A DNA stretch of 64,000 bases from Chloranthus sessilifolius (taxonomy: Eukaryota; Streptophyta; Magnoliopsida; Chloranthales; Chloranthaceae). Positions 1-56,280 of this stretch are shown piece after piece. Location: assembly GCA_021018995.1 (NCBI GenBank), contig CM037588.1:81565765-81629764 (forward strand). Reading direction: 5' to 3'. The notes below the pieces were generated by a model. That model was given only the letters and a program-made list of their open reading frames with translations. It made no database searches and was not told where the DNA came from. Within the stretch, counting starts at the first letter, position 1. Every line of letters begins with the position of its first letter. Position numbers and translations under genes: made by a program.

Positions 1-592
1 CCTACTTTAACCTTGGCGCAACTAATAGTTGCGCCAGGCTTAAAATCTGGGAGAATTGGCTTGGCGCAACTAATAGTTGCACCAGGCAAAATTATCACTG
101 GCACAATTATTAGTTGCGACAGGCCATTTTTGGGGAGAAATAGCCTGGCGCAACTATTAGTTGCGCCAAATCCCTAGGGGGGCCCACTTGATTTTACTCT
201 TATGCCCTCCGGGCTCGGTTTGTCGTATCTTTTGATATATACCTCTAATTGGGGCGATTCTTGGACCGTTGGAAAGCTAACGACCTCTACTTTTGAATTG
301 TATGAGATTCGATCATAGTAGAAGGTTGTAGCTAGTTTCAGTGTACCCCTCCTCAACCATTTGCTTGATAAGGTTAGGTTTAAGTTCAGAATGGGTTGTA
401 AGGGTCGGGATTGATTTCAAAAGGTTCAGGTCAGGTTCCTAAGGGACTAGGGTGATTCCTAAGGGTTTGGAAAGGTTCCTAAGTGTTCTAGGGGGGTTCC
501 TAAAGGTTCCATACATGTCATCAAAAGCTCAGAATTGCACCGCTCTTGAAAGATGTTTCGATCGGGCCTTGGGCCAAATTTAGGTGTCTACA
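1..592 (-). repeat. E1 3' LTR, U3 part only (continues outside window)
   Basis: On the minus strand the LTR starts at 592 with TGTAGACACC and runs off the left edge. It matches the start of the E1 5' LTR (21468 downwards) collinearly, including the palindrome array. Only U3 is visible, so age cannot be judged by full LTR comparison within this window. Confidence 0.88.
14..168. repeat. Array of four 23-nt inverted repeats in Tat U3
   Basis: Four near-identical 23-nt inverted repeats lie at 14-36, 62-84, 99-121 and 146-168. Each has an 11-base arm TGGCGCAACTA, one centre base, and the complementary arm; the first and fourth are perfect. Start-to-start spacing is 48, 37 and 47 bases. The array sits in U3, upstream of the expected TATA position of this LTR family. 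Confidence 0.95.
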
Positions 593-3379: not shown

Positions 3380-3850
3380 CGCTTTCGACAGGTTCAGGAA
3401 GCTTTCGACAAGTTCAAAATGTAGCATTTTGGTCCTTTCGCTAGGTTCTTAGTTCTCTTCGATAGGTTCCGATATGATGAGCCTTCTCTCAGAGTTTCAG
3501 CATTCTCAGCTCTTGGCCTGGAGTATTCGACAGGTTGGAGGGGCTCTTCGACAGGTTGGAGAACCATTTCGACAGGCTCCTCTCTGCATGCCATCATTTC
3601 GATAGGGTTGCTCTCACTCCTATCGACAAGCTCAAGTACCCTTCGATAGGTTCAGTCCAGCGTCTTCATCTCGATAGGTTTTAAGAAACCATTCGATAGG
3701 TTCCCTTGACTCCTCAGACGAGTTTTCGATAGGATGGTTTCTTCTTTCCTTTCAGCTGCTTGATAGGTTCTGAGATCCTATTGAACTCTTGAATCCACAC
3801 GAGTTCACCATTCTTTTACCTTCAGATCCTGTCGAAACTTCTTCAACTGC
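3380..3850. repeat. Cluster of TTCGAYAGGTTC motifs in Athila-type solo LTR
   Basis: At least ten copies of TTCGACAGGTTC or TTCGATAGGTTC and close variants (for example near 3384, 3402, 3457, 3524, 3546, 3566, 3638, 3690) occur with irregular spacing of roughly 15-60 bases. The cluster occupies the same part of the LTR as the CTCGCGCAGTTC cluster of the E3 LTRs, but the motif differs. Confidence 0.85.
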
Positions 3851-5472: not shown

Positions 5473-6780
5473 TCACCAATACTTACCTTGACGTGATAGA
5501 CTAAGAGTAGAACCGTTGGACGTATCCAGCGTTGATGGGCTCAGGAAGATGATCTTCGTCCATGGTGGCGAGGTGAATGGCGTATCTCGGTAGCACTTCT
5601 CGAATGACGTAAGGTCCCTCCCAATTTGGCTTGAACTTTCCTCTTGGATTGGCATGGAGGGATGGGAAGATCTTCTTCAGTACAGTGTCTCCTACCTTCA
5701 GATCTCGACCGCAGACACATTTATTATAAGCACGTGTGATTCACTCCTGGTATACTTGAGTGTGACACAAGGCTAGGAGTCTCTTCTCGTCCAATAAGTT
5801 TAATTGTTCGAAGTGAAATCTCTCTCTCTCTCTGCTTCAGGTAAGCCTGATTCCATGAGAATTTGAAGCGAGGGTACTTCAACCTCAACCTGTAGGACGG
5901 CCTCGGTTCCATATACAAGGGAGAATGGTGTTGCCCCTGTAGTGATATAGATCGATGTTCTGTAGGCCCACAAAGAAAATGATAGCATTTCGCTCCAATC
6001 TCGGTAGGTGACGACCATTTTCTCAAGGATGCGGATGGTCGTCTTGTTCGCAGATTCCACGGCTCCATTAGTTTGAGGTCGATAAGGTGACGAGCGATGG
6101 TGGTTGATCTTGTATTGCTCACAGAAGGCTCGGATATGCTTATTTGCAAAATTTGTACCATGTCCGTGATGATATCTTTGGGTACTCTAAATCGGCACAC
6201 ATTTGTAATCTTGAGAAACTTCTCGACGTGACTGGCCGTGATGTTGGCGTATGATGCTACTTCTACCCACTTGGTAAAGTATTCAATGGCGACGAGGATG
6301 AACCGATAACCGTTTGATGCTTTTGCGCTAATCATTCTGATGACATCAAGGCCCCATGTAGCAAATGGCCAACGAGTGGTCATGCAGTGTAGATCGATGG
6401 CAGGAGAATGTATCAGACTGGAGTGTTCCTAACACTTGTGGCATTTCTAAACATATTTACAGCAATCTGATTCTATAGCGGTCCAAAAGTATCCTTGCCA
6501 CAGAATTTTCTTAGCAAGCATGTGACCACTGACTTGGGCTCTGCATACTCCTTCGTGGCCCGCCTTCATGATGTTGGTCGCTTCACTTTCAGTAAGGCAC
6601 CTGAGTAGAATGTTGTAAGTTTGCTTATAAAGGCATTCCCCCCAAATGACATAGCCTACTGCTAAACATTGAATGGTTTGTCGATTCATCTTGGATGTTC
6701 CCTTAGGGAAAGTTAGTGTCTTGAGAAAATTCTTGATATCTGAGAACCAAGGTGGCTCATCATTAGGCTTTGTAGGTTCC
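5473..6780 (-). pseudogene. pol: Integrase of E1 (pol 3' end), broken
   Basis: Integrase joins the reverse-transcribed DNA to the host chromosome. On the minus strand the order is: zinc-binding region with HEGVC and GH (about 6500-6570) followed by KCHKC; the catalytic core opening with GLDVI and KASNGYRFILVAIEYFTKWVE (about 6260-6370, first Asp present); IITD with the second Asp (about 6160); and ANKT preceded by the expected Glu (about 6050). The tail extends to 5473. The frame is broken after IITD, at the end of the zinc-binding region (stop codons near 6420-6460) and again near 5810-5830, where a (TC)n run sits. It follows the archaeal-type RNase H directly, as expected for Tat elements. 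Confidence 0.85.
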
Positions 6781-7311
6781 TCAATCTGTAGGCAGAAGGC
6801 CGACTCACTTCTCTGCTCGATCATGATCGGCTTCATCTCAGCACCATACGGGATTTCTATCATTGATGACAACGTTGCTAGTGCATTAGCAAAACGGTTC
6901 CTTATCTGTGGGACGTATGAGAATGTCACGTCTTGGAAGCAAGCTATTAGATCCTCGAGGTGTTCATGATAAGGGATCAGTTTCTCATCCTTTATCTTCC
7001 AATCTCCATTCATTTGGCATATCATCAACTGGGAATCACCAAACACTTGAAGGTGAGTTATATTCAGATCGAGAGCTGCCTGCAGGCCAGCGACACAAGC
7101 TTTGTATTCAGCTATGTTGTTAGTACAAGGGAAATTGAGCTTGATAGAGACCGGTACATGGGACCCTTTTGGTGAAATTAGGATGGCGCCAACTCCTTGG
7201 CCCTCGACATTTGCTGTCCTGTCAAAGTGCATTACCCATGACTCTTCTGCCTCTTCAGTATCGTCTTCTGTCATGAACAAGATATCTTCATCTGGGAACT
7301 CAGTCCTTAAA
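6781..7311 (-). pseudogene. pol: Archaeal-type RNase H of E1
   Basis: On the minus strand the segment encodes HFDRTANVEGQGVGAILISP, then CTNNIAEYKACVAGLQAALD and FGDSQLMICQMNG, the usual order of the second (archaeal-type) RNase H of Tat elements, which removes RNA from the RNA-DNA hybrid. The first acidic position (FDR, usually DGA) keeps its Asp but the following residues are changed; AEY and GDSQ are present. A reading frame continues past 7311 up to 7478, but those residues come from the inserted solo LTR, so the apparent start there is not the gene's own. Confidence 0.82.
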
Positions 7312-7703
7312 GGTTCTGTAGACACCCAAATTCGGCCCAAGGCCCGATCAATCTGTACTTCGGGAGAGATGTACTCATGTGCTTCTGATGGCACCCCCTG
7401 AGCCCTTAGGACCCTACCTAGACTAGTAGAAATCACCCTAAGACCTTTAGAGCCATTCCCCCAATCCTTAGAAGTCACCCCTACACCCTAGAATCCCTTC
7501 CCAGACCTAACTTTAACCCTTCTGGCAGTTGATGGGATGAGAGCCACAAAATTTCACGCAGACCATTACCATGGATGAGCCATATACCTTTGGAAAGAGG
7601 ACTTCTCCAGCTTTCCAACAAGCCAAAGATCACCCAATTTGGAGCTACGGTTCAAATGTTATGGCCGATTGAAGTTTCACATAAAATCATAGGACTTTTA
7701 CTC

Positions 7704-7920
7704 AGGCGTAGATATTACATACGCCCAGCCATTTTTGCCCCAGATTAGTCAGGCGTATATATTATATACGCCTGACTATTTTGGGGAAAATTTGGCCAAG
7801 CGTATATAATATATACGCCCAGTATAGGTGGGACCCACCACGGGTTTCATCTTCTCAAAACTCCCCTGATTTTGGTGAATTTTACTGTTCCTAAACTGGG
7901 TGTATATAATATATACGCCC
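7704..7920. repeat. Array of 23-nt inverted repeats with GCGTATATA arms
   Basis: Four 23-nt inverted repeats lie at about 7704-7726, 7751-7773, 7798-7820 and 7898-7920. The second is a perfect 11+1+11 structure with arm AGGCGTATATA. Starts are 47, 47 and 100 bases apart. The array is placed in the LTR exactly where E1 and E2 carry TGGCGCAACTA arrays. Confidence 0.95.
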
Positions 7921-8200
7921 AGCTTAGCTTCAGTAACTGTCATCAGTTGCTCGAATTTCCTTCATCTAGTTTGACCCTTTGACCATCCCCTTAGTTAAGG
8001 TGGGTGACTTAAGATTGGTTGCACCACCTTTGAGCTTATTGGCAACCCTTAAGTCACCTTTGGTCTCACCCCATCATCTGCCATTGAAATCAGTTTCCCC
8101 AAAACCCTAGGACCTGGAAAACCTAGAAAACCTTAGATGGGGAGATTACCTAATTGCTAAACCCATTAGCTCTTAAGTAAGCCCCTAATCCACCTCTTCT

Positions 8201-8210
8201 CTATAAATAG
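8201..8210 (+). promoter_or_regulatory. TATA box of Tat solo LTR
   Basis: CTATAAATAG followed by a C-rich tract, matching CTATAAATAG at 39036-39045 in the E2 LTR and its reverse complement at 20593-20602 in the E1 LTR. Confidence 0.75.
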
Positions 8211-8919
8211 AGAGGCCCCCCCTCTTCCTTAAGGGTTGGAAAAAATTGGAGGTTAAGGATTTGGAGCTTAAGAGAGAACCCTAGTGAGAGAAAATGCACA
8301 CAATTTTCCAGAATTCCAGCATGCTTAGTTCATCCCTTTCAACCCATTTCCACCATTAGATCACTCCCTTTTGCTAAAATCTAGCCTTTAACCTCACCCT
8401 ACACTTCCTATTTTACCGAATCCTAGTGTTAGAATCCATTTCGATATCGTTTAAGCCATCGAAAGCACGCCAAAGCGAAGATCTTCCACGGTGCAACAAG
8501 GGCCCGTGAGCTCCGGCTCACCCCTCTCTTCCTCTACCTTCTTTGTGTCTCCTCCGTCCAAGGATTCAAGCCGTTACGCCGCCGAAATTTTGGTTTGACT
8601 CAAAGCTTGATAGGACCGTATTGCCTTCGGGCAAGGGGAAACTCCGCCCTTTTTTTCTTAAATTTTGGCCATAGATAGAAACCGCCACGTGCGGGTTGAT
8701 CGTGTGCCTAAACCCTTCCCGATCGATAACCGAAGCCCCTACCCTAGAGCCTTTGGCAAAGACCGGTAAATCAGAGTCATATTTAGCACTTCGATGCTCA
8801 AAATATCGATTTGAAGGTTTCCTGGGTCACCAAAAGCTCCGGGTGGCAACTCTACATTTTCATCAAAAGCGAGTGCATCGCCGCGATGGGTTCGAGAGGA
8901 TCCACGGTCGCACAGGTTC

Positions 8920-18386: not shown

Positions 18387-18934
18387 CCTTTGGGAACGGG
18401 TTGGGTAAGGGTGCCTTGGACAAGGCCCAAAAATCCTCCTCCTTCTTCCCCTACGAGACGGTGGAGGGTAAGATGATGCCGCTGTGCCGGCACCACAAAC
18501 TATATATTTTTTGGTTTTGATTTGATTTTTACTCTTTTTTTTTTTGGATTAATTTTTTTGAGAAAATTTTGAAAAATAAAGGTTCTGATGCCTTAGAATT
18601 CCCTTCTCAGGTGGCTCTCGTACCCTAATTCAAGACCCACGACGACGATTCTGACGCACATCGGAAGAATTGAAGGAGGACCTCCGATCTATTGAAGGCA
18701 CAAAAATCAAGGAAAACAACCCGATCCCCCGGAATGAGTCAAAAACAAGTTGCCTTCTTTTGATCGGCGGGGGCATATTGGGTGTCGGAGATGGCAGAGC
18801 CCAAACAGAGGTACTAAGTGCACTAATCGGGGGACTCGGGAGGTGAGAAAGCCTCAGATTTTGAGCTGCTGCTGTCCAAGTAAACTTGGTATAACTAATA
18901 CATGTGCCAAGGTAGCAGGGCCTCTTTTTTACAC

Positions 18935-19021
18935 TGGCGCAACTAATAAGCTGGCGCAACTAATAGTTGCGCCAGTTATAAATTCTCAATTTTTGCACTG
19001 GCACAACTAATACTTGTGCCA
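18935..19021. repeat. TGGCGCAACTA inverted-repeat array in E1 leader
   Basis: One half copy (18935-18950), one perfect 23-nt copy (18952-18974) and one diverged copy (18999-19021); the last two are 47 bases apart. The arms are the same as those in this element's LTRs, and the flanking bases resemble the U3 spacers. Confidence 0.9.
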
Positions 19022-19869: not shown

Positions 19870-20592
19870 TCTGTGCAACCGTGGGATTTTTTATGATCTC
19901 GTCACGACGATGCGCTCGCTTGTAAAAAATATAGAGTCGCCACCCGGAGCTTTTGGTGTCCCGGGATACCTTTATAATTTTTATAAGCACCGAAGTGCCA
20001 CAAATATGACTCTGAATCCAGTCCACACCAAAGGCTCTTGGGTAGGGGCTTTGGTTATCGATTGAGAAGGTGCTAGGCACCTGATCAACCCGCTTAACGC
20101 GGTCTCTACTAATGGCTAACATAAAAATAAAGTAAAAGAAAAGAAAATGGCTTCCTCTTGTCCAAATGGGCCTCAAATCTTATTTGTGCCCCTCCATTCC
20201 TACCGAAAATTCAGCAGTGTAACGACACAAATGGGAGGATAGGAAGAGCTAAGGAAGAGATAGCAGAAGAAAGGGGAGAGCCGGAGCCCTCGAGCCCTTG
20301 TAGCACCGTAGGAGAGCCTTGCTTGGCTTGCTTTTGATAAGCTTTTGAAGGGTTGAATGGTGGAAAGAGGGATTCTAACCACGAAGGCTTACTAGCTAAG
20401 AGGTAGAGAAGGGAGGCAAATGGATAGCACACATCTAACCTAGAGGCTTTTTAGGAAAGGTAAGGCACGGAATGAGATTTTGGAATTCTGAAATTTGTAT
20501 GAGCAATGGTGCACCAATGGGAGAATGATTTCTCACTTTAAGCTCTTTCTCTCTTAGGCAAAAATTCTCAACCCTTAAACCAAGGGGGGGCT

Positions 20593-20602
20593 CTATTTAT
20601 AA
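20593..20602 (-). promoter_or_regulatory. TATA box of E1 5' LTR
   Basis: The minus strand reads CTTATAAATAG followed by a C-rich tract, as in the other two Tat LTRs. Confidence 0.72.
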
Positions 20603-20883
20603 GAAAAGGGTAGATTTGGAGATCACTTAGGAGCTAAATGGGTTTAGCAATTAGGTAATCTCAAATCTAAGGTTTTCTAGGATTTTTAGAGTCTTGAAAT
20701 GTATGAGAATGTCCTCCAATGGTGGATGATGGGGTGAGGCTTTAAGCCACTTGAAGGGTTACAAATAGGTAGGGAATGGGTGCAACAGAACTAGAAAACA
20801 CACCCCAATGATCAAGGTGGTCAACAAGTCAAACCCCAATCACGATTTTCAAGGCAAAATCCAGAGATTACTATTCATATGCC

Positions 20884-21045
20884 TGATGCAACTAATAGTT
20901 GCGCTAGAAACAAGTTGGTTTGCAAGGGTGGGCCCCAGCTTTAACCTTGGCGCAACTAATAGTTGCGCCAGGCTTAAAATCTGGGAGAATTGGCGATTAG
21001 TTGCGCCAAGCAAAATTATCATTAGCGCAACTATTAGTTGCGCCA
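20884..21045. repeat. TGGCGCAACTA inverted-repeat array in E1 5' LTR
   Basis: Copies at 20884-20906 (imperfect), 20948-20970 (perfect), 20991-21008 (one arm shortened) and 21023-21045 (nearly perfect). The plus-strand order and the flanks match the array at 14-168 except for small deletions. Confidence 0.92.
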
Positions 21046-22387
21046 AATCCCTAGGGGGGCCCACTTGATTTTACTCTTATGCCCTTCAGGCTCGATTTGC
21101 AGTATCTTTTGATGCATACCTCTGATTGGGGTGATTCTTGAATCATTGGAAAGCTGATGACCTCTACTTTTCAATGGTATGAGATTCGATCATAGTAGAG
21201 GGTTGTAGTTGGTTCCGGTCCACCCATCCTCAACCATTTGTTTGATAAGGTTAGGTTTAGGTTCAGAACAGGTTCTAAGGGTCAAGATTGATTTCTGAAG
21301 GTTTGGATCAGGTTCCTAAGGGATCTAGAGTGATTTCTAAGGGTTTATAAAGATTCCTAAGGGTTCTAGGAGAGTTCCTAAAGGTTTCATACATGTCATC
21401 AAAAGCTCAGAATTACACCTCTCTCGAAAGGTGTTTCGATCGGGCCTTGGGACAAATTTGTGTCTACAAATATATTTTCTTCAAAAATAAAACTAGAAGC
21501 AACAGGAACACCGTATCTTTAGATCATAGATAACGATCTGAATATAGGAACTTGGTACATCCACACACACACATGTGGAAATCAAAGCAGAAAAAAAAAT
21601 AGATGGCACAAAAGGCCGGGCATACCAAGTCGCACAAATCCTTACACAAAACAAGTAACACAACTCTGTCTACTACAAGAACTCCGATAGAGGAAAGTAA
21701 CCTGGATCCTCGTCACTAAAAGCAGCAACAACAAACTCTGAACCTGTGATGTATAGTAAAAAGGGTGAGCTACATCATAGCTCAATAGGGAAATAACTGA
21801 ACATGTAAGACTATCTACTTACACATATTTCATGACTTAGGCGAAGCATGAACTCATACACTGAAAACTGATTAAAACATGTAAATTACTGAAAGCATGA
21901 ACTGCATGCACACGTCACATTTCACATCTTATCTTTTACTTATCCTGTTCTCTTATCACATGAAAGCTTATCTTTAAAACTTAAATCAAATAACTTAAAT
22001 AATTCCTAAGGAATACCCACCATCGTCATTCAATTGAACACTTTTTATGAAACACAGACCCAAGTCCCTTTCCCAACTGTGGCTGGGCACTTAAATTCAC
22101 ATACATCCCCAGGATGTTTACAATGTGTACGGGTATCCCTCTGTACCAGTCACGGATATCCTGCTACGTCAGTCATGGGTATACCGCCGCGTTGGTCGGG
22201 TATTAATCGTTAAATCGTATGTGCAAAATACATATAATTTATCACCGTGTATTTGTGTTAAATATTATATCACAAACCTTTCTTCAATGTTTCACACACA
22301 TATTGATCTCATCACTTAGAGGTTTGCATCACATATACGTCCCTGGGACGTCACATTCACATTTCACTTGCTTGTTTCTTGCTTAGT

Positions 22388-27700: not shown

Positions 27701-27929
27701 AGACTTGTTAAGACATGAAAAGTACCACTTTTCACCCCTTAACTTAACCTTTGATTAGACCCATAGCCACTAATAAGTCCTTGTTAAGTGTTTTATGTAG
27801 GTAGTACCCAGCAGTGAAATAAGGCCAGGAATCCTGCTAAAAAGCCTGTTTTAGCACCAGAAGTCCCTTAGAAGGATGAAGTCTGAATCCAGACCTGAAA
27901 ATGAGCCTCAAGCAGTTCAAAGCAGACTT

Positions 27930-28440
27930 CTCTCAACCGCGCACAGTTCGCTCAGAACGGCTGAGAAGAGAGAGCTTCAGAAGACTCCTCATGGAGCTAT
28001 CGCGCAGTCACCGCGGGATGCAATTATTAGAAGAGAACTCCTCGCGCAGTTCTCACGCCATTTAAGAAGAAAGCGTCCTTGCAAAGGCAAAGCCACCTTC
28101 ACAAAGATCAGTTAAGACATGGAACCTCGCGCAGTTCAGAACTCATCAAAGCCTCGCGAGGTAACTCGCGAAGCCCAGTGAAGATAAGTGCTCGCGAAGT
28201 TCTCGCGCTATTCAAATCTATCTTCGCGAAGATCAACCTTGCAACTGCTTAAGCTCCAACCCCGCGACATCTGAGGCTCTGATGTCAACCCAACCTCGTG
28301 ACTGCCTGAAGAGCAAACCAAGCCAACCTCGCAAAGGTAGAAGCTTCAATTTCAAATCATCCTAGCGAAGAACAAAAGCTACCAGGCGACAAGTCTGGGA
28401 AACAATGGCTACCTAGCGATGCTCTGAACCTCAAACTTCC
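27930..28440. repeat. Cluster of CTCGCGCAGTTC / CTCGCGAAG motifs, E3 5' LTR
   Basis: More than ten CTCGCG-containing variants in about 500 bases upstream of the TATA box. The 3' LTR has the matching cluster at 33140-33800; several CpG sites differ by C-to-T or G-to-A. Confidence 0.85.
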
Positions 28441-28604
28441 ATCACTTCAGCTGATGACTTTCTGGGAATTTCCAGCGATTAGGACACGTACTCCCATGCT
28501 CAAATCTCTGTGCATGCGCCCCAAGGCATCGGAGGATCACTATTCGGTGACGTGGCATCGTTAAAATTATGGTTTCCTAACCCTAATGCGCCGCCACACC
28601 ACTG

Positions 28605-28614
28605 CTATAAATAC
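28605..28614 (+). promoter_or_regulatory. TATA box of E3 5' LTR
   Basis: CTATAAATAC in a context shared with the 3' LTR, where the site reads CCATAAATAC (33967-33976). Confidence 0.7.
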
Positions 28615-30109
28615 CCACACTTAGCTTAGGTTTGGGGAGCTTAGACTTTCTTTTCTTTCTACATCTTGGAATAGCTAGGAACCCATCTCATTTCTGGGAG
28701 ACCTGATCTGAGATCGTTTAATTTTTCTTTTTGTAGTTGTAAGTAGCTTTCTTTTTCTTTTTCCTTCTCTCCATAGTCTAGCACTTGCTGACTATGTCTT
28801 TGTGTGTATTTTGAACTAGATTAATGGAAGTTCTGTAATAGGATCTGTACTTTGTGGGATTTATGATTGAATGCGAGATGCTCTGTGCAAGGCTACTACC
28901 TTGTGATCCCCCATTACTTTGGCTGTGTTTCAAAGCAATGGAGGACTGATTCTAAGGCCCACTCAGATCCAAGTGACCTATGTGTCTGGGCTATCATGGT
29001 CCTATACAGCCTTAGCCCCACCACAGGACCCACTAGATTTGAAATCCCCATGGGAGCTTGAGCTGGTAGCCTTGTGACCATGGTGGTAGCAGCGATATTC
29101 TTGTTTTGTCTTAGGCTCCATGAGGAGGATAACCTCTGGGTTAGTCTGTGACCATTTAAGTGGACAGATTATAGCCTTAGGGTGATTCTAATCCACCGAT
29201 CGAAGATGGATCCTTCTTCTTTACACCTGAGCTTGTAGAAGCCTGGTGGGAGATTGTACAGAGGCAGACTCCCCTATATTTGTATAGATCCGCCATCAGA
29301 TGTTGGATTTGATCTAGTTATAGAGATTGTAGGCTGGTGACTGGACCATTGTAGCCTCACTCAAGCAATGGACAACTAGATCGAATGTTGTACTCAATCT
29401 TCTGCTAGTTCTATGTGTCTGGGCTATCATGGTCCTATACAGCCTTAGTCCCATATATAGAGCTTTAGAGGTTGAGGTTCCCTATGGATTCTTGAGCTGG
29501 TAGCCTGGATGAAATAGTACCTGCAATGATTTACTGGTTATGTTTTGACCCATCCCTGGATAGTGGTTCCCCTATGGGATAATCTGTGACCATTTGAGTG
29601 GACAGGTTATACCCTTAAGGGTGGAATCATGGCAGAGTGATGGGTTGGATCCTTTCTCCTCAGTGGTGATAATGTAGCCACTGGACAGGATTTCTATAGC
29701 ATCAGATCTGAATCTGAGTTACAAAACTCCTCTGATCTGGGTTCGATAACATACTTCTCACCCTTTTATATTTATTTCTACACTCCATCCATCCTCTCAA
29801 CCCTTTTTGTAGTTTAGACATTAGAATACTTAGAATAAGTGACCTTAAACTCCCCTCCTTTTAGGACTGCCAGATCTGTAGTCAGATCTAAAGGGACTAC
29901 TAGAGATGGATCCTTTGGAGCTGTAGATCACCTTTCCCTATGGGACAAACTCTTACTTATCAAAACTTGCTACAATGGACCCTGAATCTTGCAGGTCTAG
30001 GATTTCTTAGTTGTGCTGATTCCATCTCCTGTTTTACTCTTTCTTTGATTTTCAAATGACTTTCACCACCAACCAATAAAGTAAGCACACACTCAGAAAT
30101 CCGCTAGCA

Positions 30110-31045
30110 AGTTCCTACTACAGTACCTACACAACCTGTTGGTCCTGCTCAAGTCCCTACTGCAGCTCTTGCTCCTGTCTCAGTGCCCCCCTGGTTCCCT
30201 CTCCTGCTCCCAAAAGAAAATGCACTCCTTCCAAGAAAACTCCCACTTCCAAAAGAGCCACTGCAGCACAAAAGGTAAAAGGCTGGCCCCTCCATCCCCA
30301 CCTCCAAAGGTCACCAGAGCTTCTGCTCAGGATGATCCCCATGGTCGCCTACTTTCCAAAGAGGAATGCAGACAGGCTACTGCTGCCCTTAGATTGGATC
30401 CCACTGAGCTTTTTCCTTCTGACTCCGACTCTGATTCTGCACCACCTAAGGATCCCAATGCCCCCCACTTTTGCTGTTGTTCCTTCCTCAAGCCCTGCTG
30501 AACAATCCTATCCTCAACGAAGGAAGTTTGCTGCCAAGAGGACTACTCCCCCATGTGGCTCTTTGAAAATTGGAAAAGACAAATCTCCCCAGTCTGAAGA
30601 GGCACCACCACTAAGCCAGCCTGTGAAAGGGAAGATCCCTGCCATTCCTGCAGCCAAAGTACAAGAACCATTTTCTGTGGCTCCCCCTAAACCAGTGAAA
30701 GGGATAAGTCCTCTCCTGCCTCAGGTGAAAGCAAAAGCTAAATCCCCTGTTGTCCCTCCTGAGCCAACACCAGCCCAATCCCCTCTTATTCCCCCTCTGG
30801 CCCAACAAGGGCAAGCCTCCAAAGGTAAGGGCCCCAAAGGAAAATCTCCCACCAAACCCCCTGAGCCAACCACTGATAAATCTTTAGAGATCCCTCCTGA
30901 ACCAAAGAAGAGAAAAATGAGGCTTAGGGCTCTAACCATACCCAAAATGGGCGACCAAAGAAAGGCAGAGAGAGAACGAAGGAAGAACGAGGAGGAGGCT
31001 TACCTTCAAGAACATGCCAAGAAAATGGGTTGGGACAAGTTTTGA
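30110..31045 (+). pseudogene. Pro/Lys-rich ORF tail in E3 (envelope-position ORF?)
   Basis: Longest clean frame 30332-31045. Upstream coding sense continues in other frames, suggesting at least two frameshifts. Visible features: a basic Ser/Thr segment near 30225-30275, an acidic serine stretch PSDSDSDSAPPKDP (about 30415-30455), repeated Pro/Lys motifs such as PVKGK and KGKSPTKPPEP (30620-30880), and a charged end with ERRKNEEEAYLQEHAKKMGW. No retroviral enzyme domain is seen. It lies between the 5' LTR and the 3' noncoding region, which corresponds to the third ORF placed after pol in Athila elements; that assignment is an inference. I do not recognise the protein. Confidence 0.5.
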
Positions 31046-32939: not shown

Positions 32940-35471
32940 TGTTAAGTCCTGAAAAGTATCACTTTTCACCCCTTAACTTAACCTTTGATTAGACCCATAG
33001 CCACCTAATAAGTCCTTGTTAAGTGTTTTATGTAGGTAGTATCCAGCAGTGAAATAAGGCCAGGAATCCTGCTAAAAAGCCTATTTTGGTACCAGAAGTC
33101 CCTCCGAAGGATGAAGACTGAATCCAGACCTGAAAATGAGCCTCGCGCAGTCCAGCTGAGGTTCCCAAGACACCACAACAACTTCCCGCACAGATGATTG
33201 ACTGAAGAGCCTCAGAAACATAAACTGGCACAGCTCTCGCGAAGCTCAAGAATAGAACACCTCGTGCAGTCTCGCGCAGTTCAAAGCAGACCTCTCTCAA
33301 CCACGCAGTTCGCTCAGAACGGCTGAGAAGAGGGAACTTCAAAAGACTCCTCGCGCAGCTGTCGTGCAGTCGCCGCGGGATGCAATTATCAGAAGAGAAC
33401 TCCTCGCGCAGTTCTCGCGCCATTCAAGAAGAAAGCATCCTTGCGAAGGCAAAGCCACCCTTGCGAAGATTAGTTAAGACATGGAACCTCGCGTAGTTCA
33501 GAACTCATCAAAGCCTCGCGAGGTAACTCATGAAGCCCAGTGAAGCTAAGTGCTCACGAAGTTCTTGCACTATTCAAATCTATCTTCATGAAGATCAACC
33601 TCGCGACTAATTAAGCTCCAACCCCGCGACATCTGAGGCTCTGATGTCCACTCAACCTTGCGACTGCCTGAAGAGCAAACCAAGCCAATCTCACGAAGGC
33701 AGAAGCTTCAATTTCAAATCATCCTAGCAAAGAATAAAAGCTACCATGTGACAAGTCTAGGAAACAATGGCTACCTAGCGAAGCTCTGAACCTCAGACAT
33801 CCATCTCTTCAGTTGAGGACTTTCTAGGAATTTCCAGCGATTAGGGCACGTACTCCCATTCTCAAATCTCTGTGCACGTGCCCCAAGGCATCAGAGGATC
33901 ACTATTTGGCCATGTGGCATCATTAAAATTAGGGTTTCCAAACCCTAATGCGTCGCCACAGCACTGCCATAAATACCCACACTTAGCTTAAGTTTGGGGA
34001 GCTTAGACTTTCTTTTCTTTCTACATCTTGGAATAGCTAGGAACCCATCTCATTTCTGGGAGACCTGATCTGAGATCGTTTAGTTTTTCTTTTTATAGTT
34101 GTAAGTAGTTTTCTTTTTCTTTTTCCTTCTCTCCATATTCCAGCACTTGCTGGCTATGTCTTTGTGTATATTTTGAACTAGATTAATGGAAGTTCTGTAA
34201 TAGGATCTGTACTTTGTGGGATTTGTGATTGAATGTGAGATTCTCTGTGCAAGGTTGCTACCTTGTGATCTCCCATTGCTTTGGCTGTGTTTCAAAGCAA
34301 TGGAAGACTGATTCTAAGGGCCACTCAGATCCAAGTGACCTGTGTGTCTGGGCTATCATGGTCCTATGTAGCGTTAGCCCCACCACAGGACCCACTAGAT
34401 CTGAAATCCCCAAGGGAGCTTGACCTGGTAGCCTTGTGACCAGGTGGTAGTAGCGATATTCTTGTTTTGTCTTGGGCTCCGTGAGGAGGATAACCTCTGG
34501 GATAGTCTGTGACCATTTAAGTGGACAGATTATAGCCTTAGGGTGATTCTAATCCACCGATCCAAGATGGATCCTTCTTCTTTACACCTGAGCTTGTAGA
34601 AGCCTGGTGGGAGATTGTACAGAGGCAGACTCCCCTATATTTATATAGATCCACAATCAGATGTCGGATCTGATCTGGTTATAGAGATTGTAGGCTGGTG
34701 GCTGGACCATTGTAGCCTCACTCAAGCAATGGACAGCTAGATCGAAGGTTGTACTCAATCTCTTGCTGGTTTTATGTGTCTGGGCTATCATGGTCCTATA
34801 CAGCCTTAGCCCCACATATAGAGCTTTAGAGGTTGAGGTTCCCTATGGATTCTTGAGCTGGTGGCCTGGATGAAATAGTGCCTGCAATGATTTACTGGTT
34901 ATGTTTTGACCCATCCCTGGATAGTGGTTCCCCTATGGGATAATCTGTGACCATTTGAGTGGACAGGTTATAGCCTTAAGGGTGGAATCATGGCAGAGTG
35001 ATGGATTGGATCGTTTCTCCTCAGTGGTGATAATGTAGCCACTGGACAGGATTTCTATAGCATCAGATCTGAATCTGAGTTACAAAACTCTTCTGATCTG
35101 GGTTCAATAACATACTTCTCACCCTTTTATATTTATTTTCTACACTCCATCAATCCTCTCAACCTTTTCTGTAGTTTAAACATTAGAATACTTAGAATAA
35201 GTGACCTTAAACTCTCCTCCTTTTAGGACTGCCAGATCTGTAGTCATATCTGGAGGGACTACTAGAGATGGCTCCTTTGGAGCTGTAGATCACCTTTCCC
35301 TGTGGGAGAAACTCTTACTTATCAAAACTTGCTACAATGGACCCTGTATCTTGCAGGTCTAGGATTTCTTAGTTGTGCTGATTCCATCTCCTGTTTTACT
35401 CTTTCTTTGATTTTCAAATGACTTTCATCACCAACCAATAAAGTAAGCACACACTCAGAAATCCGCCAACA
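32940..35471 (+). repeat. E3 3' LTR
   Basis: 2532 bp, TGTTAAGTCC ... CCGCCAACA, followed by AGACT. The longer partner of the pair, it keeps the roughly 128 bases (about 33143-33270) missing from the 5' LTR. The motif cluster spans 33140-33800. Confidence 0.95.
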
Positions 35472-35476
35472 AGACT

Positions 35477-38246: not shown

Positions 38247-38633
38247 TGTAGACACCCAAATTTGTCCCAAGGCCTGATCGAAATACATTTCAAGAGAGGC
38301 ACATTTTTGAGCTTTTGATGGCATGTATGGAACCCTTAGGAATCAACCCAAACCCTTTGGAATCACCCTAGATCCCTTAGGAACCTACCTTGAACCTTTA
38401 GAAACCAATCCCTACCCTTAGAACCCATTTTGAATCCTAAACCTAACCTTCCTGGGCAATGGATGAAGAGTCGTACACCAAGACTAGCTGACGTCTTCTA
38501 CTGATATCAAATAATATACCATTGGAAATAGAACTTATCCAGCCTTCTAACAAGCCAAGAATCGCCTCAATCGGAGTTGCATATCAAAAGTTATGGCATT
38601 TCCAAGATCAGGCAGAAATTCAAGTTTTTTACT

Positions 38634-38755
38634 TGGCGCAACTAATAGTTGCGCTAGTTTTAAAGTGGACCCCACCCCTCGCGAAGCCAACTTCCAGGCT
38701 ACTGTACAGAACTATTTTATTGTACATTTGCCTGGCGCAACTAATAGTTGGTCCA
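38634..38755. repeat. TGGCGCAACTA inverted repeats in E2 5' LTR
   Basis: Two copies 99 bases apart, one near-perfect and one with a mutated right arm. A third expected copy between them appears deleted or replaced. Confidence 0.9.
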
Positions 38756-39035
38756 GGCATATGAACAGTTACCTCTGATTTTTGCCTTGAAAATCGAGAT
38801 TGGGGTTTGACTTGTTGACCACCTTTATTTTTGGGGTGTGTTTTGCTAGTTTTGTTGCACCCTTTTAGTGCTTATTTACAACCCTTAAGTGATTTGAAAT
38901 ACTAACCTATCATTCACCATTACAACCACCTTCACACCTTTCCAAGCTCTCAAAATCCTAGGAAACGTTAGATTAGAGATTACATAATTGCTAAACCCAA
39001 TTAGCATCTAAGTAGCCTCCTAATCCACCCATTTC

Positions 39036-39045
39036 CTATAAATAG
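39036..39045 (+). promoter_or_regulatory. TATA box of E2 5' LTR
   Basis: CTATAAATAG followed by a C-rich tract, identical to the box of the solo LTR at 8201-8210. Confidence 0.75.
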
Positions 39046-39770
39046 AGCCCCCCTCCCCTTAGATTAAAGGTTGAGAAATTTTCTTAAGAGAGAAAGAGCT
39101 CAAAGTGGGAAGTTCTTCCTCCCTTTTGTACACCATCTTCACATAAATTTCATAATCTCCCAACCTTATTTCAAGCTTACTCATGCATCCAAAACCCTTA
39201 GGCTATGTGTGTGCTCCCCCCTAGACCCCTCACTCTACCTCTTAGCTTTAAGCTTTAGGAGTTAGAATCCTATTTCATACCATACAAAGTCATCAAGAGC
39301 TCATCAAAGCAAGCCATCACAAGGCTCTCCTACAGTGCTACAAGGGCCCTAGGGCTCTAGCTCTCCCCTTTCTTTTCCTATCTCTTCCTCAGCTCTTCCC
39401 ATCCTCTCATTTGTGTTGTTACGCCGCCGAATTTTTAGTAGGAACGGAGGGGCACAAATAGGGTTTAAGGCCCATTTGGGTAAGAGGAAGCTATTTTCTT
39501 ATCTTTTACTTTATTTTTGTGTTGGCCATTAGTAGAGACCACGTTAAGCTGGTTGATTGGGTACCTAACACCTTCCCGATCGATAACCGAAGCCCCTACC
39601 CAAGAACCTTTGGTGTGGACCGGATTCAGATTCATATTTATGATACTCTAGTGCTTATAAAAATAATATAGGTTTCTCGGGACACCAAAAGCTCCGGGTG
39701 GCGACTCTATATTTTTGCTAGCGTGCGTATCACAGCAATGAGATTGTCACAAATTTCACGGTTGCACAGA

Positions 39771-40574: not shown

Positions 40575-40681
40575 TGGCGCAAGTATTAGTTGCACCAATA
40601 CAAAAATTCACTGGCACAACTAATAGTAGCGCCAGGCTTATTTAGGGAACTTTTGTTTTGGCGCATGTATTAGTTGCGCCA
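40575..40681. repeat. TGGCGCAACTA inverted-repeat array in E2 leader
   Basis: Three 23-nt copies at 40575-40597, 40612-40634 and 40659-40681, 37 and 47 bases apart. This is the same spacing as copies two to four of the U3 array at 62-168, and the flanking bases are recognisably related. Confidence 0.92.
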
Positions 40682-52100: not shown

Positions 52101-52838
52101 TGTTATTCATTGAAAAGTACCACTTTTTACCTCTTCACTTAGCCTTTGATGGACCTTGAAGCCCACTAATAATTATTTGTTAAGTATATTTTGCAGTTAG
52201 TAATCAAATGTGCTGCCTAATACAAACTCCTTGCTTTTTGGCCTAAAAGAGAGAGAGAATGCACTCAAAGATTATAGTTGAGACAAAGCCTGATGGAACA
52301 CCTTAGTAGTGCTCACCATGGTGACTCATAGTTGCTGATCATCATTGACCAATGTCTAGTAGATGAATGAAGTTAGCTGAGAAAGGAGAATGCTGCAACA
52401 GCAGTAAGTGTAGTGCAGCAGAGTGTCAAGAAACAGACCTCACAGAGTTGAGGAGCTTCCTCACGCAGCTAAAGATGCAGTGGAAGAAGCTCTCGCACAG
52501 ATATGCTGAGTAGTCAAGAGGAGAGTTATAAAAACATCACGAAGATCTTGCGGCATAAAACCTTCAGAATTCATGGTCACGAAGCTCTCGCTGAGATCAA
52601 GCCTCAAAGCAGCCGTGTGAGGAACACAGCGAGCCCATATGCATATAGAACAGAAAGTCACCTCGTGGAGTTCTCGCGTGGCCCTGGAAGAGTGAGACGC
52701 CCATAATTCCCCTCGTGCAAATCTCACGCACTCTGGAGCCTTACAAGTTACTACGTGAGCGTAGGAGCCCACCTGCACAAGTACTTAGCGAGAGAGAATT
52801 CCTGAAGCTCTACTGTGCTAAAAACCCTGGCTCTCTAG
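52101..52838 (+). repeat. Truncated Athila-type LTR
   Basis: Collinear with 55457-56195, including part of the CTCGCG motif cluster, and lost beyond ...CTGGCTCTCTAGAT. No TATA box of this LTR family remains. Confidence 0.85.
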
Positions 52839-53450
52839 ATCACGGAGCTATTTGCTTTTGCGTGATGTACCTTCTCGCGGAGGTACATCTGTACTGCGTG
52901 AGAACTCTACCCCATGAGCACTTAGGAAAACTCCATGAAACGCGGGATTCCCTTAATTCCCTATGCCAAATTTAAACCACAATTTATTGCGAGCTCTAGC
53001 TCCCCAAATAGGTTGTGCGATTTATCAGTCCCAGAACAATCACAATTTATTGCCACGCTCGGAAAGAGGCGAAAGTTAATGTGCCCATCCGTATTCCACC
53101 GTCAAAGTACTTTAAATATAGGGGCAGTTTGTTTTCATCTCACCCATTCTCCTCTAACCTTAGTAGTCCCTCCTTACTCACAACCATGGCGGACGACAAC
53201 ACACCGAGTTCCTAAACAAATTCTATCCAATGTGGTTAGACCCCCCACTGCCTAAGGAGTCAGACCCACTACAATTTCTTTGGGATGAGTACGAAGAGGT
53301 CCAAAGAATCCTGGCCAAGGAGGAGAAGAAAAAGGAGAAGGAAAAGAAGAAGAAGCAAAAAACCGAACCACCTGCATCTCCCCCACCATCTTCTTCAAAA
53401 CCCCCACCACCTGCTCAACACCCATCTCCATGATCCTCGTCTTCCCCCTC
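52839..53450 (+). pseudogene. Unplaced segment with TATA-like promoter and Lys/Pro-rich ORF
   Basis: This replaces the rest of the LTR. A TATA-like TTTAAATATAGGGGC at about 53110 is followed about 70 bases later by a good plant start context AACCATGGCGGA (53186), but that frame stops after nine codons. A second frame, 53230-53433, reads ESDPLQFLWDEYEEVQRIL, then a lysine/glutamate run and a Pro/Ser-rich tail. The two frames could be one ORF separated by a frameshift. It lies where E3 has its Pro/Lys-rich ORF tail, so it may be the same element ORF in diverged form or captured host sequence. I do not recognise the protein. Confidence 0.4.
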
Positions 53451-55456: not shown

Positions 55457-55789
55457 TGTTATTCACTGAAAAGTACCACTTTTCACCTCTTAACTTAGCC
55501 TTTGATGGACTTTGAAGCCCACTAATAATCATTTGTTAAGTATGTTTTTCAGTTTGTAATAAAATATGCAGCTTAATACAAACTCCTTGCTTTTTGGCCC
55601 AAAAGAGAGAGAGAATGCACTCGAAGATGACAGCTGAGAAAAAGCCTGATGGAGCACCGTGGTAGTGCTCACCATGGTGACTCATTGTTGCTGATCATCA
55701 TTAACCAATGTCTAGCAGATGAATGAAGTTGGCTGAGAAAAGAGGATGTTGTAACAGTAACAAGTGTAGTGCAGTAGAGTGTCAAGAAA

Positions 55790-56280
55790 CTTACTCGCTG
55801 AGTTGAGGAGCTTCCTTGTGCAGCTAAAGATGCAGTGGAAGAAGCTCTCACACAGATATGCCATGCAGTCAAGAGGAGAGCTGTAAAGACAACATGAAGA
55901 TCTCGCGGCATAAAACCTTTAGAATTCATGGTCGCGAAGCTCTCGCAGAGATCAATCCTTAAAGTAGCCGTGCGAGGAACACAACGAGCCCATATGCATA
56001 GAGAACAGAAAGTCACCTCACAGAGTTCTCACATGACCTTAGAAGAGAGAGATGCCCAGAATTCCCCTCGTGTAGATCTCATGCACTCTAGAGCCTTACA
56101 AGTTTCTATGCGAGCGCAGGTGCCCACCTGTGCGAGTACTTAGCGAGAGAGAGCTCCTGAAGCTCTACTGTGCGAAACACCCTGGCTCTCTAGATAATCT
56201 CCACGACAGCACTGGGATGTGAAGCAATTGCGTGATTCACGAAAGGTTTACTACGTGAATGAGCCCTTCCCATCGGCAAA
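55790..56280. repeat. Degenerate CTCGCG motif cluster, E4 LTR
   Basis: Recurring words such as CTCGCGGCATAAAAC, GCTCTCGCAGAG, CGAGCGCAG and TGCGAAA in about 500 bases upstream of the TATA box. More degenerate than in E3, with many CpG sites apparently changed to TpG or CpA. Confidence 0.7.

Follow-up and report, generated by a model that had tools for sequence, protein, structure and literature searches.

Mirror-symmetric palindrome classes in the LTRs of a Chloranthus retrotransposon family: putative sites of a symmetric regulator

Palindromic LTR motifs, and the co-evolution of a factor with its motif, are already known from plant transposons. In Sireviruses, which are Ty1/copia elements, short multicopy palindromes (RM) are present in U3 upstream of the TATA box, further copies are found upstream of another gene, env, and the sequence varies among elements around a fixed CGG-CCG core (Bousios 2010, PMC2829016). 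VANDAL transposons encode VANC anti-silencing proteins; short motifs in their non-coding tandem repeats co-diverge within an element, and related elements have different motifs (Hosaka 2017, PMC5735166). Tat/Ogre elements have an RNase H-like domain just before the integrase and Plant Mobile Domain (PMD) open reading frames between pol and the 3' LTR (Neumann 2019, PMC6317226; Ikeda 2017, PMC5418596); a PMD extra open reading frame is found in 57% of Ogre elements (PMC6317226), and the binding of PMD to DNA is a hypothesis (PMC7156037). These statements, and those on the same papers below, extend to the portions of text accessible in each source.

How does the present locus compare? The palindromes analysed here are also short and multicopy, lie in U3 upstream of the TATA box, have further copies upstream of another gene and vary around a fixed core, as in Sireviruses. 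Like the VANDAL motifs, they are set in non-coding tandem repeats, co-diverge within an element (a V-class element and the LTR L007 are exceptions) and differ between related elements. The host element resembles Tat/Ogre both in its RNase H-like domain just before the integrase and in its PMD open reading frames between pol and the 3' LTR. The feature is real and ordered: a palindromic site occurs at several promoter-like places, and its classes are mirror-different between subfamilies.

The palindromic unit and its slot in the LTR

The window, i.e. the whole stretch of DNA analysed, consists of 64,000 nucleotides (contig CM037588.1, positions 81,565,765 to 81,629,764) within the 2.17-Gb host genome of Chloranthus sessilifolius. 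Units of all classes have the common frame GCG-NNNN-TA-W-TA-NNNN-CGC, and the class is defined by the four inner arm bases: CAAC denotes T (most), TATA denotes S, TGTG or TGTA denotes U, and CAAG, CATG or CATC denotes V, with TATG in addition. The S and T arms agree at seven of 11 positions (GGCG.A..TA). In the T class, dyad symmetry ends abruptly: it is.98 at 11 bp and.54 at 12 bp. The edge is softer in S and U. GCG and TA-W-TA are constant and the four bases between them vary. Units in the genome sample were sought with the frame GCG/TA/TA/CGC, which other frames would escape; the same units and the same pattern of constant and variable bases were obtained when the first 70 sampled LTRs were scanned for palindromes without the frame.

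The window holds a minus-strand Gypsy element (A), a plus-strand relative (B) and a solo LTR (S) inserted in the pol region of A (Table 1). Both halves of element A, which flank the solo LTR, align contiguously with B. An RVT_3 domain is present in the window at 6447-7487. Two pairs of direct repeats, 27706-30111 / 32940-35473 (~93% identity) and 52101-52840 / 55457-56195 (~88% identity), resemble the LTR pairs of other, younger elements.

Table 1. Coordinates of the LTRs, palindromic units and arrays in the window
Feature	Positions	Strand	Remarks
Solo LTR S (TG..CA)	7317-8914	+	TATA-class palindromes; GGTTC target-site duplication at 7312-7316 and 8915-8919; alignment of element A with B contiguous across the insertion
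S unit 1	7704-7726		Semi-symmetric; left arm TAGA, right arm TATG; three arm mismatches
S unit 2	7751-7773		Perfect 11+1+11 palindrome
S unit 3	7798-7820		
S unit 4	7898-7920		100 bp past unit 3; 281 bp ahead of the TATA box
TATA box of LTR S	8202-8209	+	TATAAATA
Element A 3' LTR	1-592	-	Cut by the window start; T-class units 14-36, 62-84, 99-121, 146-168
Element A 5' LTR (A5)	19872-21468	-	T-class units 20884-20906, 20948-20970, 21023-21045
Element A leader array	18952-19021	-	T class; extra decayed copy 18887-18909
Element B 5' LTR (B5)	38247-39768	+	T-class units 38634-38656, 38733-38755
Element B leader array	40575-40681	+	Three units; T class with one-arm variants

An earlier note on this DNA had proposed that the Tat LTRs are homologous along their length and that the solo LTR carries a different palindrome in one U3 slot. 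Both statements are borne out. Flank homology between the solo LTR and A5 has z values of 27 to the left of the slot and 71 to the right, and the values for the solo LTR and B are 31 and 67; a lack of homology at the flanks, which the note had named as a possible objection, did not hold. Four AGGCGTATATA-type units occupy the slot of the solo LTR, and the LTRs of A and B have TGGCGCAACTA units (each 0 in 100 shuffles). The proposed 11+1+11 architecture is thus present, but unit 1 departs from it by its mismatches. The proposed spacing of about 47 bp describes the first two intervals of the solo LTR, 47 and 47 bp, but not the third. Across the interval from unit 3 to unit 4, relatedness is weak between the solo LTR and A5 (z 3.1) and absent between the solo LTR and B (z -0.2). 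From the last unit to the TATA box there are 281 bp in the solo LTR, 282 bp in A5 and 281 bp in B5. Helical phasing of the spacings (37, 47-48, 97-101) is not claimed because the copies are related.

The spacers form one 24-bp family. That they are related, as the note held, is correct in so far as some pairs match in either orientation, but the pair it quoted compares opposite strands, as element A is on the minus strand. Inverted ends, GGCCATTT...AAATGGCC, are common among the 24-bp spacers (window 122-145 and 7727-7750 are examples); the 47-bp repeats are consequently near-identical on either strand, and some spacers appear inverted between LTRs. Between S units 3 and 4, at 7827-7839, is GGTGGGACCCACC, itself a perfect palindrome, which we take to resemble a TCP-factor site; GGGGCCCACCC and GTGGACCCCACC stretches are found near the corresponding place in A5 and B5.

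Classes of unit and the steps between them

The two main cores are abundant. The T core GGCGCAACTA is present at at least 9,336 places in the host genome, the S core GGCGTATATA at at least 8,531 and the U core at at least 915. A T|S chimera with one arm of each is found at two places. The viral collection has no exact match to either core (T or S), and prokaryote genomes, which were searched with the T core only, have no exact match to it.

An LTR-start pattern gave 8,109 genome matches, and the LTR sample consists of 90 of the 100 places listed, all on C1. At least one unit is present in 72 of these 90 LTRs, with 204 units in total. No unit was detectable in the other 18 (L006, L008, L013, L021, L023, L046, L047, L049, L053, L067-L069, L073, L074, L087-L089, L093), where the unit type may be outside the frame or the array may have been lost. 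Array copy number differs among LTRs. The tabulation of units per LTR that the earlier note called for shows discrete types that are nearly uniform within an LTR: judged by the left arm, with unclassified arms excluded, 198 of 208 same-LTR pairs agree in class, and classes are mixed in five of the 97 tabulated LTRs. A mixed S/U element at C1:98402759/98403889 (1.1 kb apart) was considered and set aside, as an S LTR encloses the S units but not the U unit, and it is read as neighbouring or nested elements.

Could one class have replaced another in a single event? On a quick tree of 78 LTRs, made from the flanking sequence with the array excluded, 10 class changes suffice, versus 25 with shuffled labels. 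Its labels are majority arm classes, whereby L009 and L011 (CATC and CAGG units) count as T; the 18 unit-less LTRs and L091, whose unit is beyond position 700, were left out; and the tree joins two long branches (L072, L092). S is one clade, except for one TATG-majority LTR within it; U, TATG and part of V are beside S, and CAAG-carrying LTRs are also found within T. Two TATG-class LTRs 145 kb apart, L075 (C1:75643133) and L076 (C1:75788566), have a flank distance of zero on this tree and may represent either a recent duplication or an assembly duplicate.

The arms form a graded series in the putative order CAAC, CAAG, CATG, TATG, then TATA or TGTG, then TGTA, and each of these is found with both arms alike. 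This series, together with the common frame, argues for stepwise mirrored change and not a single swap. The earlier idea that units were replaced together and spacers kept is therefore retained in part: units do shift more sharply between types than spacers, but the one-step swap is abandoned, since a graded series of units, which the note had itself named as evidence against a swap, exists.

One-arm changes are seen as well. Heterotypic CAAC|CAAG units are common, with 970 places in the host genome; among the matches listed, at least 11 of 100 such places are 150-156 bp from a leader marker, and window elements A and B have a CAAG-left, CAAC-right unit at that same leader place, 150-156 bp from the marker. 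A one-arm change is thus able to fix at a single unit. The semi-symmetric units TGGA|TGTG, TAGA|TATG and CATC|CATG are fixed. Those with a TAGA or TGGA left arm recur at a fixed array place, i.e. in S unit 1 and in the last U3 units of the U LTRs L020, L029, L039, L061 and L066, and may have their own role.

The two arms of a unit tend to agree. Exactly homotypic units make up 41 of the 84 sampled units with a non-T arm, versus a shuffle mean of 9.7 and a maximum of 20 in 2,000. Decay within the T class has produced 169 one-arm sites and 18 two-arm sites; 14 are mirrored, where per-position base rates predict 10.3. If two mixed LTRs are left aside, the numbers are 12 mirrored and 10.0 expected, and eight of the 12 are at position 5, in CpG. 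The T arms decay almost independently, so that copying of arm onto arm, the template-driven process suggested at first, is not evident in dead copies. Dead copies have a slight mirrored excess at most, and the mirrored differences sit between classes, i.e. between lineages that were replicating.

Arrays and antisense PMD reading frames outside U3

The palindromes are not confined to U3. Elements A and B have a second TGGCGCAACTA array in the leader, between the PBS and gag, and five units outside the LTRs start at 18952, 18999, 40575, 40612 and 40659 (0 in 100 shuffles); both elements have T in U3 and leader alike. Elsewhere, U3 and leader share class S at L095, where the PBS is between the arrays, and at L003 with L096. 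In L098 and L099, two U arrays 1.9 kb apart are of the same class, with their identity as U3 and leader assigned from this distance. Fixed-offset leader probes detected no unit in five of eight cases; one decayed unit was found in L097 and one T-like unit in L102. L007 has CAAG in U3, but its leader (L105, downstream) has T-like mixed units.

Further arrays are present between pol and the 3' LTR. In an S element, whose two LTRs (L030 and L031) are assigned to one element by orientation, a 21.6-kb distance and pairing on the tree, there are two additional S arrays: array 3 with four units (L109:189-354) and array 4 with two (L109:4265-4334). No perfect S core was found at its leader among the matches listed. 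Arrays 3 and 4 are both T in two T elements, L043-L042 and L044-L045. By the genome match list, L043-L042 has a T core at the leader offset as well, and a further element, at C1:79331107-79352561, has S cores at the U3, leader, array-3, array-4 and 3' U3 offsets. The V element L085-L084 is less regular, with units that as a set lack both uniformity and symmetry: its leader (L104) has CATA|CGTG and CATG|CGTC, and its array 4 has CATG|CGTG, CGTG|CATG and TGTG|TGTG. No array 3 was found in the stretch probed there. In the U element L065-L066, neither array 3 nor array 4 was found in the stretches probed.

Of interest are the open reading frames next to these arrays. Array 3 of the S element is directly upstream, in antisense, of ORF1, and array 4 is 1.3 kb upstream of the antisense ORF2. 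Both have matches to the Plant Mobile Domain (PF10536), ORF2 with an E value of 5.4e-16 and ORF1 with an E value of 4.2e-8 and 33.2 bits, below the Pfam cut-off of 34.9. ORF1 is beside array 3 in both T elements also, but no U or V copy of its PMD part was recovered. The distance from the end of array 3 to the aligned ATGGACCC start is 176 bp in the S element and 168 and 168 bp in the two T elements. In this interval a script search finds TATAAA in S only, 24 bp ahead of the ATG; in the T elements the script finds no TATAAA, and only TTTATATG is seen by eye. The open reading frame that follows ORF1 has a coiled-coil appearance by eye.

Between S and T, ORF1 is 55-58% identical and has a dN/dS of.165-.172, with dS near saturation, which indicates that it is maintained as a protein. 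Its pN is.27-.28, compared with.146 at similar pS in two long pol segments (versus window copies with stop codons) and.24-.25 in two pol segments closer to the integrase C-terminus. ORF1 may thus have a higher rate of change than the pol core, though not than all of pol.

Sequence L108 carries, in a single frame, RVT_3 followed by Integrase_H2C2 and rve, with H2C2 under its cut-off; a first RH domain was not identified ahead of RVT_3. The extra RNase H-like domain just before the integrase and the PMD extra open reading frames are Tat/Ogre features, and by this domain order and these reading frames the host element is assigned to the Tat/Ogre-type Gypsy elements. ORF1 is encoded in the part of L108 past position 3,700, and neither A nor B contains DNA that matches this part; nor do ORF1 and ORF2 have a match in A or B at the protein level; ten antisense and other open reading frames of element A contain no PMD or TRP28 domain.

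Possible roles and comparison with described systems

What do the palindromes represent? Sites of one class recur ahead of the TATA box in U3, between PBS and gag in the 5' leader and, among full-length relatives, ahead of the antisense PMD open reading frame and at a further place between pol and the 3' LTR; this holds for the elements mapped, apart from exceptions in one branch. Within the main classes, the inner arm bases change in mirror on both arms, and spacers and flanks drift. The palindromes are probably cis-regulatory sites of a symmetric (dimeric) DNA-binding regulator, common to several promoters of one retrotransposon and with a specificity that differs by subfamily. Selection for a binding site, one of the options first raised, is the best fit and extends past the LTR to the leader and the antisense genes. 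A regulator with an altered base preference would select new sites at its promoters. It might be element-encoded, most simply, as a guess, an antisense PMD protein or its partner, and the element's own PMD proteins are candidate regulators. The spread of a new site would probably be aided as U3 is copied to both LTRs and as arrays undergo small expansions. The binding step and the identity of the binding protein we infer from sequence. On balance, the mirrored class differences across subfamilies appear to be of the kind that a control site would show if it kept pace with a protein that changes.

Might the reader of the site be a host protein? Binding by a host transcription factor or repressor, where subfamilies either escape repressors or come under different host factors whose sites are related, is somewhat unlikely. 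We know of no host factor with this palindrome site. Palindrome arrays in U3 upstream of TATA do resemble the regulatory motifs proposed for Sireviruses, in the accessible text of that study (PMC2829016), but a site that changes in several promoters, that of the element's own antisense gene included, is more simply understood if the reader changes too. An element-encoded regulator could be taken one step further. Subfamilies would then constitute separate regulatory circuits, in which an antisense PMD protein reads its own palindrome in the element's promoters, its own included, and the inner four bases act as a private address that co-changes with the protein, with no cross-activation. This extension is rather doubtful.

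Neutral concerted evolution would require no binding protein: 47-bp tandem turnover by slippage or unequal exchange, arm copying by hairpin or template switch, and recombination between arrays could together generate uniform classes. The 47/48-bp period in U3 and other arrays with related spacer ends, the variable number of copies per LTR, mirrored variation at one outer base in S units and at two positions in U units, and the small mirrored excess in T are all in keeping with it. Turnover of whole 47-bp repeats should, however, level the spacers too. Unit identity, which the choice of units by frame biases upward, is.866 within T,.576 for T vs S and.572 for T vs U; the spacers reach.651 within T,.744 within S,.573 for T vs S and.609 for T vs U, against a shuffled baseline of.342. 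Thus, between T and S the units have diverged as much as the spacers, and inside T the units are far better conserved. Arrays 2-20 kb apart also share class in the mapped S and T elements, and GCG and TA-W-TA stay fixed as the four bases between them change, in the frame-free scan as well. A neutral origin is accordingly unlikely.

A role as RNA hairpins in genomic or antisense RNA (packaging, dimerisation or a source of small RNA), whose stem pairing mirrored changes would preserve, is very improbable: transcripts would include the units of the leader and of the 3' U3, and the palindrome-rich LTRs of Sireviruses are hot spots of small RNA (cited in the accessible parts of PMC10760457 and PMC5311732), but G-U mismatches are not favoured over A-C (102 vs 127, other 73; most of these represent decay), U3 arrays are upstream of the TATA box, and TA-W-TA at the centre hardly varies, a constancy that a hairpin loop would not require.

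Sites of a symmetric DNA-binding regulator would bear on the role of antisense open reading frames in plant Gypsy elements and on that of transposon-encoded PMD proteins, to which the silencing proteins MAIN and MAIL1 are related. The palindrome classes offer matched and mismatched protein-DNA pairs from one genome. The two main cores, with approximately 18,000 copies between them, and the graded series constitute a natural record of a symmetric site that changes yet stays symmetric.

No paper on such arrays in PMD-bearing Ogre retrotransposons was found in the accessible open-licence literature. In Tat/Ogre accounts, the term 'palindrom' is absent from the available text of PMC6317226, and that of PMC5418596 mentions no such arrays. 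The antisense TRP28 open reading frames of Retand encode a domain other than PMD, and in the accessible text 'palindrom' is present only in a cited title (Vicient 2025, PMC11963269). VANC differs in that it binds its motif by experiment, and the motif, YAGTATTAY, is non-palindromic (PMC5735166); here the element is an LTR retrotransposon, the candidate is PMD and the system is known from sequence. Sirevirus RM differs in its host, Ty1/copia and not an element with Gypsy/Tat-type pol order and antisense PMD open reading frames, and in its CGG-CCG core, in place of GCG...TA-W-TA...CGC. The Chloranthus sites, unlike those described in the available Sirevirus text, also occur within the leader and ahead of antisense PMD open reading frames, and they form classes within one family and one genome, with mirrored graded steps and genome-wide counts.
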